Assembly (NCBI RefSeq): GCF_005405405.1
Contig: NZ_BJDZ01000007.1
Coordinates: 1 to 64,000 of the forward strand
Length of the DNA stretch: 64,000 nt
Direction: 5' to 3'
Source of the DNA: Lactiplantibacillus plajomi
Lineage (GTDB): Bacteria > Bacillota > Bacilli > Lactobacillales > Lactobacillaceae
Below, piece after piece: positions 5,652 to 57,037 of the stretch. The notes beneath the pieces are model-generated. The model had not been told where the DNA came from and ran no database searches. It was given only the letters and a program-made list of their open reading frames with translations. Positions within the stretch are counted from its first letter, which is position 1, and each line of letters opens with the position of its first letter. The position numbers were made by a program, and so were the translations under genes.

Positions 5652-5856
5652 GCTCAATTCCAAGTTAGCAATACCTTGCCAGCCCTCCGGTCAGCGGGAA
5701 TCAGTCCGGAACGCGGTGTCCACGGGGTTAAGCCCGAAGTTCAGGTCTTAACCACCGGGCTTTCACTAACTCGCCAAAAGACGGCGACCAAGTGAAATTT
5801 CACCGCTAGGACCGTTCCCACTTTCCCTGCAGGCTTGAACTGGTCGTTGGCGGGCG
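5652..5856. repeat. Repeat A, copy 1 (205 bp, structured)
   Basis: Non-coding 205-bp element about 89 percent identical by eye to 55557-55761. Conserved potential stems include TCCGG...CCGGA, GGTTAAG...CTTAACC and a compound hairpin TTTCACT/AGTGAAA enclosing TCGCC/GGCGA. No open frame is shared between the copies. It lies in an 875-bp gene-free gap, upstream of repeat B copy 1, the same order and orientation as at 55.6 kb. It could be a structured RNA gene or a small non-autonomous mobile element; I do not recognise the family. Confidence 0.75.
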
Positions 5857-5912
5857 GTAGGGGATAAAAAATAAAGTACGTTTTAGCCCTCTTTTGCCTT
5901 TAAAAAAATCTA

Positions 5913-6075
5913 GGAGCGTGTTAAATAGTTTGTGTAAACGTGCCTTAGTATGATTTTTGTTTTACCCAGGCTATTCAAACATTGAATCCAGTATATCTTG
6001 GCAACTAACGAAGCCATGATGACTACGTCTGCCGTTCCGCTCGTTATAGTTTAAGCACTGTGTAACGGTAAATCG
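5913..6075. mobile_element. Possible insertion-sequence scar
   Basis: The segment at 5913-5943 (GAGCGTGTTAAATAGTTTG and onward through TGTAAACGTGCC) resembles the terminal inverted repeat of IS256-like elements, where a TTTGTGTAAA core is common. On the minus strand, just inside it, an open frame ends with NERNGRRSHHGFVSCQDILD and a stop, which looks like a transposase tail. No other end or transposase body is visible. Identification is tentative. Confidence 0.3.
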
Positions 6076-6094
6076 GGTTAACGAGTCTTCATTG

Positions 6095-6153
6095 ACAAAA
6101 CGAGAGTTCCAACATTTCTCTACTTTTGAGAAGCGTTGGAACTCTCGTTTTGT
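6095..6153. terminator. 19-bp perfect inverted repeat
   Basis: ACAAAACGAGAGTTCCAAC and its exact complement (6135-6153) flank a 21-base loop that itself contains TTCTC/GAGAA. A very stable hairpin with A/T-rich flanks, most simply a bidirectional terminator beyond the 3' end of the 6313-6645 gene. Confidence 0.6.
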
Positions 6154-6312
6154 GTTAAAGGTAACCGATAGAGAACAAAGTAATCACTCATAGCAGCTGT
6201 ATTTAGCTTGAATTTCAATCTTCGATTTATCCAGGACCAAAATACGATCAACATCCGAATTTTTAAAAAATAGCTCAAAACGATTAGAGACAAGTTATTA
6301 AAGAATGGACGC

Positions 6313-6645
6313 TTAATTTAATCCTTTTAAGAAAGAAATGACTCCGTTTATTGATTCTTCATTTAATTCCAATGCATCTAATTGATAAATCCTTTCTTGG
6401 AGAAAATTCCCCTTATAAAAGCGATGTTGTAGGCCGTTTTTTAGAATTAATGCTTGCGGATTCTGCTGCACAATATCATCGATATTTCCCGACGAGGTGT
6501 CTAGCTGTACATGCCAATCCATGGAGACTTCATCAAGTTTATTGTTCAATTTTTCTACAAACTGTTTTTCTTTTTTGTTAAAAATAACTACGGAATCAAT
6601 TATAAATGGTAACCCTTGGTAGACCAAAATACAAACTCTTTTCAT
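6313..6645 (-). CDS. Hypothetical protein, 110 aa, low GC
   Basis: Open frame of 110 codons with ATG preceded by AAAGGA ten bases upstream. I do not recognise the product. The N-terminus (KRVCILVYQGLPFIID) is hydrophobic and strand-like, and the C-terminal half is rich in Q, N, L and E and predicted helical; there is no signal peptide or clear membrane segment. Its base composition is clearly more A+T-rich than the flanking housekeeping genes, and it sits between repeats A and B near an IS-like scar, suggesting acquisition by transfer. A stable hairpin lies downstream (6095-6153), supporting a real transcription unit. Function unknown. Confidence 0.55.
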   Translation of the reverse strand: MKRVCILVYQGLPFIIDSVVIFNKKEKQFVEKLNNKLDEVSMDWHVQLDTSSGNIDDIVQQNPQALILKNGLQHRFYKGNFLQERIYQLDALELNEESINGVISFLKGLN

Positions 6646-6880
6646 ATTTAAGCATTCCTTTCGCTAACGCTCAGAGCACATTGTTATTTAGCTGTTTCTG
6701 ATAGTTCTTCCGAAAACAATTTATCTAGTCCTTTTTATGAAAGATAACAGTGGTGGAACTGTTATCTGTTAACTTCAATTGAATATGGGGTTCGTGTACT
6801 TAAAATCACCGAACCGCGTCAACAACCACGTGGCCAGTTCATTGAATCTGACGCGTTATTAGCTATGGTGCTGTAATTGA
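6646..6880. other. Gene-free stretch before repeat B
   Basis: Contains a perfect hairpin GATAACAGT-ggtgga-ACTGTTATC (6743-6766). It also holds an open but start-less reading frame on the plus strand ending TAA at 6874 (last residues ESDALLAMVL), which may be the tail of a decayed gene. Nothing else is supported. Confidence 0.3.
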
Positions 6881-7032
6881 GGTCCCGAAGCCCTTCGAAA
6901 CATGGCTGTGAAATTGTTGTTGGTCGTCGTACTTTGACGACTTACAACAAGGCCGACTTGGGAGACAATTCGGGGTGTGAATTGGCTTCCGAGCGTGCCC
7001 ACAGCCTTGCTTTCGTTCAGGCGGAGTGGACC
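6881..7032. repeat. Repeat B, copy 1 (152 bp, structured)
   Basis: About 93 percent identical by eye to 56004-56155. The ends pair (GGTCC with GGACC), an inner long-range stem GGCTGTG/CACAGCC closes a multiloop, and two hairpins sit inside. Hairpin 1 is TTGTTGT...ACAACAA with inner GTCGTC/GACGAC; hairpin 2 is GGGAG-A-CAATTC-GGGGTGT-GAATTG-G-CTTCC. Stem differences between copies are compensatory, pointing to a folded RNA. Not recognised as a named Rfam family from memory; strand of transcription unknown. Confidence 0.75.
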
Positions 7033-55556: not shown

Positions 55557-55761
55557 GCTCGATTCCAAGCTAGCGTTTCCTTGCCAGTCCTCCGGTCAGC
55601 GGAAATCAGTCCGGAACGCGGTGGTCACGGGGTTAAGCCCGAAGTGCGGATCTTAACCGCCGGGCGTTCACTAACTCGCCAAAGGACGGCGACCAAGTGA
55701 AACTTCACCGCTGGGACTGTTCCCGCTTTCCCTCCAGGCTTGAACTAGTCGTTGGCGGGCG
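55557..55761. repeat. Repeat A, copy 2 (205 bp, structured)
   Basis: Second copy of the element at 5652, about 89 percent identical and collinear over its whole length. Same potential stems TCCGG/CCGGA, GGTTAAG/CTTAACC, TTCACT/AGTGAA and TCGCC/GGCGA. Followed 242 bases later by repeat B copy 2; that AT-rich gap (55762-56003) shows no gene. Confidence 0.75.
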
Positions 55762-56003
55762 TTAACGCGTTAATTTATATGAATGGATTGAATCAGTCTG
55801 GTGATTGATTACTGAATGGTGGTCACTACTTCGAAAATCAAGAATTTTAAGATCTATTCATCCATAATTACTAATTCAAGTTATCTATTAGTGGAATCCA
55901 AATTGATATGATTTTAGGATGCTAAGGATTAGTGAACGGCATCGTCAACCACGCTACTAGTTTATTAAATCTAACAAGTTATTAGTTAACGAGACGTAAC
56001 CGA

Positions 56004-56155
56004 GGTCCCGGAGCCCTTCGAAACATGGCTGTGAAATTGTTGTTGGTCGCCGTTGTTTGGCGACTTACAACAAGGCCGACTTGGAAGACAATTTGGGGTG
56101 TGAATTGGCTTCCATGCGTGCCCACAGCCTTGCTTTCGTGTAGGCGGAGCGGACC
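56004..56155. repeat. Repeat B, copy 2 (152 bp, structured)
   Basis: Second copy of the element at 6881. Compared with copy 1, GTCGTC/GACGAC becomes GTCGCC/GGCGAC (compensatory) and GGGAG/CTTCC becomes GGAAG/CTTCC (wobble to Watson-Crick), while CAATTC/GAATTG becomes CAATTT/GAATTG (wobble). The fold is therefore conserved. Confidence 0.75.
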
Positions 56156-56275
56156 GGTGTGTTGACCGTATTTCTAGAAGTTTTTGAATTTTTTAAAATA
56201 TAAGTGGTTGTTAATTAGCGTCAATTGAAAAAACGAACTTACCACGGTCGTGGCAAGTTCGCTAAAATAATGGCA

Positions 56276-57037
56276 TTAACGTTTTTTGTAGCTGAGGTAG
56301 TAGAGCCCACCGACTAGGCCGGCACCGCCGAGGACGTTGCCGAGGTAGACGGGGATGATGTTCATGAAGAACTGGCCCCAGGTGGCGCCACCTTCGAAGA
56401 TGGCGGCGGGAATCAAGAAGCAGTTGGCGACACTATGTTGGAAACCGATGGCAACGAAGGCCATGATGGGGAACCAGATGCCGAGAATCTTGCCGGCGCC
56501 GTCTTTGGCGGAGGCGGCTAACCAAACGGCGATGCCGACGAGCCAGTTACAGCCGATGCCGGAAACAAGGCTGGGCCAAAATGACATGGCGATTTTACCC
56601 TGGGCCATGGTGATGAGGGTGGTGCGAAAGGCGCCGGTGTGGGTTAAGCCGGTAAAGTGGCCGAGGAAGAACGCGACTCAGACAGCGCCAACGAAGTTCA
56701 TCAGGCTGATTTCTAATAAGTTGAGTAGGAATGAGCGTAGTTTAATTTTGCGGTCGTAGGTGGCTAAGCTGACGACCATCATGTTACCGGTGACGAGTTC
56801 GCCACCCATGAGTAAGATGACAATCAGACCGAGCGGGAAGACCCCCGCGCCGAGAATCGTCGCGAAGCCGCCGAAACTAGCGGGGAGCGCGCCGGCAACC
56901 CGGACGTCGGCTAAGAAACCGAGTGCGATCAAGGCACCACCGAAAAAACCGAGAATTAATTTTGAAAGTAGCGGTAATTGGACTTTAGCAACCCCTTTAG
57001 CAATGCTATTGGGTAAAACTTCTTGTGGACTATACAT
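56276..57037 (-). pseudogene. Formate/nitrite channel (FNT) gene with internal stop
   Basis: One frame, 253 codons, encodes an FNT-family channel (FocA/NirC-like) of six membrane helices. It is interrupted by an in-frame TGA at 56680-56678 (after NFVGAV, before VAFFLGHFTG). The flanking halves are otherwise intact: LPLLSKLILGFFGGALIALG, MGGELVTGNMMVV (omega-loop region) in the first, FWPSLVSGIGCNWLVGIAVW and QHSVANCFLIP in the second. TGG to TGA (Trp to stop) is the simplest cause. A truncated first part (119 residues) could not form the pentameric channel. Family length is about 260-280, so nothing else seems missing. Confidence 0.85.

Follow-up and report, generated by a model that had tools for sequence, protein, structure and literature searches.

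The locus studied here raises the question of why two repeats, a 205-bp element (A) and a 152-bp element (B), should lie side by side, in equal order and orientation, at two distant sites of a 64,000-nucleotide window of the Lactiplantibacillus plajomi genome (the whole stretch of DNA that was analyzed). The initial annotation had read them as two independent repeats linked in one composite element, either a mobile unit with variable cargo or a paired RNA locus. The placement that it gave, at 5652/6881 and 55557/56004, was confirmed; the two copies of A are 90% identical and those of B 92%. The features are listed below, with scores of a covariance model built from A on its minus strand alone.

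5652-5856, minus strand: repeat A of site 1, a structured unit (model match 5679-5837, 160.5 bits, E 3.5e-46, this copy being a member of the model's own seed alignment, A1)
6881-7032, plus strand: repeat B of site 1, a structured unit (match to the A-only model at 6905-7008, covering the junction core only, 57.4 bits, E 4.7e-15)
55557-55761, minus strand: repeat A of site 2, a structured unit (model match 55584-55742, 148.6 bits, E 1.4e-42, this copy likewise lying within the seed)
55762-56003, no strand: AT-rich spacer of site 2, separating the divergent units and conserved at other single A-B sites
56004-56155, plus strand: repeat B of site 2, a structured unit (match to the A-only model at 55999-56165, 64.8 bits, E 2.9e-17)

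Open reading frames that run across B in the window were dismissed as chance frames without coding function. The element at 55.6 kb has a terminator-like hairpin on either side, one belonging to the left gene and one preceding the right gene. Beside it, a formate/nitrite-transporter-like gene (56276-57037, minus strand; named from reading the sequence) contains an in-frame stop and is therefore read as two ORFs, 56678-57037 and 56276-56608, which points to a broken gene or a sequencing error.

When the L. plajomi genome (2.76 Mb, 77 contigs) was searched for both repeats, 18 full-length copies of A and 14 of B were recovered, besides shorter fragments, at about 12 sites. They form AB, AAB, AABB and AABBB arrays, with A first every time and one to three copies of each, tandem A copies starting ~327 bp apart and tandem B copies ~255-275 bp apart. 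Linkage of A and B within one composite element was therefore upheld. Full-length B without A was found nowhere in the genome, and copies of A without a full B nearby, far from being the majority, are confined to two sites, one at a contig end (C29) and another (C33) where a gene cluster separates A-A from a partial B.

The supposed independence of the two repeats did not stand, since they are homologs of each other, placed in opposite orientation. Part of A, when reverse-complemented, resembles part of B, and the covariance model from A(-) alone recovers every full B(+) in the L. plajomi genome (E 1e-11 to 1e-17). Similarly, a profile of A(-) that consists almost entirely of L. plantarum-group copies, plus one window copy, recovers the B(+) of that group, with E values mostly around 1e-10 to 1e-15. 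When 66 A cores and 53 B cores were aligned, A(-) and B(+) showed the same architecture, composed of a basal stem, a 3' bulge, and a three-way junction with two hairpins; the unit measures ~160 nt, and its fold is a 46-pair, ~130-nt three-way junction.

Folding is better on the A-minus and B-plus strands, where G-T cells outnumber C-A cells by 121:4 in the A cores and 298:13 in the B cores. Among 26 diverse A(-) units, two-sided compensatory changes were detected at 28 of 46 pairs, and 95.4% of cells are paired, compared with 77.6% after shuffling, with the signal being lost when partners were slid. Independent folding of 19 B(+) units gave the same junction, with 24/39 pairs compensated. A conserved, covarying fold on one strand, as expected of a small non-coding RNA, is thus present in both units, and the fold is under selection, RNA being the form that we infer to be selected. 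A G-T bias on one side only is evidence against a double-stranded cruciform and does not tell RNA from single-stranded DNA. No Rfam 15 family matches A or B at the gathering cut-off, the weak matches lying elsewhere. A protein-coding element was ruled out by the absence of a conserved long reading frame in the L. plantarum-group copies.

Regarding the DNA between the repeats, the initial annotation had described it as different at the two window sites. This holds for the 5.7 kb site, which has its own ~0.9 kb; the 55.6 kb spacer is not unique, since the four single A-B sites besides the 5.7 kb one have a common, alignable AT-rich spacer of ~240 bp. The features of the exceptional segment are the following.

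5869-6760, no strand: segment of ~0.9 kb replacing the usual spacer at site 1 (coverage by other copies ends at 5868 and restarts at 6761)
6095-6153, no strand: hairpin within this segment, a near-perfect 26-bp inverted repeat
6313-6645, minus strand: orphan open reading frame of 110 amino acids within this segment

Apart from one weak match of ~59 bp at the hairpin, the segment has no counterpart at the other sites. For the orphan ORF, no Pfam or PHROGs family scored above cut-off and no viral relative was found in the search for one, while a 50% identical homologue lies on a Latilactobacillus curvatus plasmid. It was rejected as an element-encoded protein, being present at one site only and having this plasmid homologue, and is probably an insertion, not a component of the element. 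Genes in the spacer occur at only two of the ~12 sites, this one and C33, so that "variable cargo" is a weak description; they look like insertions into a tolerant spacer. At C33 (L031, 2700-7490), the genes between A-A and the partial B were read from their sequences as encoding a flavoprotein (fumarate-reductase-like), a transporter, and a LysR-type regulator.

Beyond L. plajomi, a covariance model search showed that 88 of the 301 Lactobacillaceae genomes, from 14 of 40 genera, carry the unit, and in a set of 398 Lactobacillales genomes matches were confined to this family, bar one marginal match (E 1.1e-4). Among the named records, it is present in L. plantarum EGD-AQ4, L. nangangensis, L. 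songbeiensis, L. dongliensis, and L. garii, as well as Levilactobacillus zymae, Companilactobacillus kimchiensis, and Secundilactobacillus similis. A-like sequence makes up the left part of the ~0.8-1 kb unit seen in the L. plantarum group, with about 30 A-like sites in one genome (G005) and at least 40 in an L. pentosus-like genome (G019), a lower bound because all 40 places scored were matched. Divergent pairs recur throughout Lactiplantibacillus and in two or more further genera; among opposite-strand units within ~1.2 kb of each other, read by eye, all are divergent and no convergent case was seen. Single units occur in Secundilactobacillus similis. In another genome, three same-strand tandem units, ~20-25 bp apart, were observed (G138:C4:201748-202227, minus strand), unlike the divergent pairs. 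Outside these records, a DNA pattern matched once in Niameybacter massiliensis (L204), probably by chance, as the covariance model finds no unit in that locus.

Genes around the elements are oriented nearly at random (13 tandem, 9 convergent, and 6 divergent in G019; 9, 7, and 4, respectively, in G005). Regulation of particular neighbors was rejected, considering that neighbors vary by site and are oriented as around ordinary intergenic DNA, and so was a marker of evenly spaced chromosome domains, since spacing in G005 is random. A phage origin was likewise discarded, as phage records gave no match when an L. plantarum-group A unit was used as query.

Clear terminal inverted repeats were sought in the L. 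plajomi copies and not found; consequently, the evidence on inversion comes from relatives. Inverted repeats of ~20-45 bp bound the ~0.8-1 kb unit in the L. plantarum group; in the consensus of 23 G019 elements the inverted repeats at the ends reach up to ~50 bp and center on a box like CATGATTAAAACGTGCCA. The end boxes of one element resemble each other more than those of different elements, both in G005 (95.7% identity within versus 87.3% between elements; 0/2000 shuffles) and in G019 (86.2% versus 82.2%; p 0.02). G019 and the sister genome G015 have the element at nearly all of their common sites, where the flanks are mostly 83-98% identical; at 7 of 11 comparable sites it is inverted between intact flanks, the alignments overlapping in the end repeats; between G003 and G005, one of five sites is inverted. 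Furthermore, interiors at several sites are 82-94% identical to other copies in their own genome, against 75-80% to the same site of the sister. On L. plantarum plasmids, examined for inversion at the strain level, one half only was seen, in a single orientation. Both orientations were seen between species only, in comparisons that covered one genome per species. What these comparisons show is inversion and exchange over evolutionary time.

Empty sites were also identified. The site corresponding to one G005 element is empty in G003, the interval of site 1 measures 146 bp in L. garii and 1,683 bp in L. plajomi, and the interval of the C3 site is likewise short in L. garii, in which the unit is absent from all four resolved intervals (0/4) and present elsewhere in the genome. 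The only empty site read, that of G003, has a junction too diverged for a target duplication to be recognized. On plasmids, copies are mostly halves, full-length ones being nearly absent. In plasmid pSF118-44 of Ligilactobacillus salivarius UCC118 (L122, 437-5422), ABC-transporter and oxidoreductase genes have a B-half on one side and an A-half on the other, as would result if the plasmid had acquired a chromosomal stretch that lay between two elements; similar halves occur in other L. salivarius plasmids. Linkage to a transposase was not supported, as none was found among the C33 spacer genes or, in ORFs read by eye, beside the units of Secundilactobacillus similis, Levilactobacillus zymae, and Companilactobacillus kimchiensis. 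Positions therefore turn over, and recent transposition seems to be rare, given that plasmid copies are mostly halves and that no transposase lies beside the units examined. In this context, the "mobile unit" of the initial annotation is partly sustained by the differences in occupied sites between species, the empty sites, the inversion in place, and the exchange of interiors, its variable cargo being the weak part.

The reading that we favor, with a probability of roughly 0.6, is that of an outward-facing pair of structured RNA genes, maintained and slowly spreading as an intergenic element that flips and recombines at its end boxes. Each A-B site is one composite intergenic element, with two homologous ~160-nt units placed inverted and facing outward around an AT-rich spacer. 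From this spacer, A on the minus strand and B on the plus strand would be transcribed outward as small structured RNAs, whose fold would be what selection keeps. The element may persist and slowly spread in the non-autonomous manner of a BIME or MITE, while recombination, or template switching between inverted repeats, at the end boxes would flip it and swap interiors among copies; the symmetric twin layout would leave its function unchanged by flipping. The paired RNA locus is hence the best-fitting of the alternatives offered by the initial annotation, since A(-) and B(+) have a common covarying fold, RNA itself being its predicted form. Points against twin RNAs are the spacer, where a noisy promoter search gave no convincing promoter, the modest G-T bias in the alignment of diverse A units (A1; 64 G-T versus 21 A-C), a bias that in any case fits single-stranded DNA too, the want of clear terminal inverted repeats in the L. 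plajomi copies, and the single or same-strand tandem units of some genera.

The main rival, which we consider clearly less probable while still deserving attention, is an element acting at the DNA level, in the form of a non-autonomous transposon or a REP/BIME- or MITE-like repeat whose folded single strands are recognized by a transposase, a recombinase or a nucleoid protein, any RNA being incidental. Terminal inverted repeats, empty sites, in-place inversion, ordinary intergenic placement, and random spacing are all typical of such elements, and G-T is tolerated over C-A in hairpins of single-stranded DNA too. However, conservation is far higher in the 160-nt junction than at the ends, the part that a transposon should preserve, no associated transposase was seen beside the units examined, and the near lack of full-length copies on plasmids, where fragments occur, argues against frequent transposition.

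A cis-acting bidirectional terminator or insulator between genes, with the fold working in read-through transcripts, would agree with the intergenic location and with the two terminator-like hairpins around the 55.6 kb element. Nevertheless, it is improbable, since the folding strands are those leading out of the element, neighbor orientation is close to random and includes divergent gene pairs, and sites are empty in relatives that have the same genes. The notion of chance linkage, or of a large duplication of one A-B locus within the genome, could arise from the window, where just two sites are visible; it is refuted by the ~12 genome sites in constant order, the twin layout in other species and genera, and the homology of A and B.

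Several known systems resemble the favored pair of outward-facing RNA genes in part. REP units are simple hairpins of 20-40 nt, and BIME/REP elements are enterobacterial and intergenic, with palindromic units often paired in inverted orientation and in mosaic arrays, and are associated with RAYT or bound by gyrase, IHF or Pol I. The lactobacillar element is similar to them in its many intergenic copies, its units in opposite-orientation pairs, and its strand-specific folds, and differs in that its unit is a three-way junction of ~160 nt instead of a 20-40 nt hairpin, and in its terminal inverted repeats and in-place inversion. Bacterial MITEs are non-coding and present in many copies, with terminal inverted repeats and empty sites. 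The element has all these features, the terminal repeats being those of the L. plantarum group and not evident in the L. plajomi genome; unlike MITEs, its conservation peaks in the interior folds and not at the ends, and no parent transposase lies beside the loci examined. Invertons are segments that lie between inverted repeats and take both orientations, within one culture or strain, by means of a dedicated recombinase. The lactobacillar element is also bounded by inverted repeats and occurs in both orientations at the same site, with the differences that orientation varies between species only, no recombinase is linked, and the content is symmetric, because of which there is no obvious on/off switch.

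Among low-GC Gram-positive hosts, the BOX and RUP repeats of Streptococcus pneumoniae are comparable as modular, structured intergenic repeats in variable number. BOX modules (boxA, boxB, and boxC) are short and are not known to be homologous inverted twins. The BOX family of this species is named in PMC3049150. Moreover, GOLLD and ROOL are large structured bacterial RNAs of unknown function, the former named for its occurrence in Lactobacillales (PMC12286853). The lactobacillar units are likewise conserved and structured, and differ in measuring ~160 nt, in having many twin copies per genome, and in matching no Rfam 15 family. The open-access literature searched also contained no description of this element, and it appears to be a previously uncatalogued structured RNA. 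We advance only tentatively, as a possibility that we hold to be rather unlikely, that it represents an element class of its own: homologous twin RNAs, structured and divergently transcribed, with inverted repeats at their borders and tens of copies per genome, which would invert in place, recombine among copies, and be indifferent to inversion by symmetry, with the RNA itself aiding maintenance or movement.

In brief, Lactiplantibacillus plantarum and its relatives, which are heavily used in foods and as probiotics, have genomes in which a fold with strong covariation recurs tens of times. If transcribed, these copies would make up a structured-RNA family of unusual size in an organism amenable to experiment, and the combination of in-place inversion and interior exchange offers a natural system for learning how long inverted repeats flip and homogenize.
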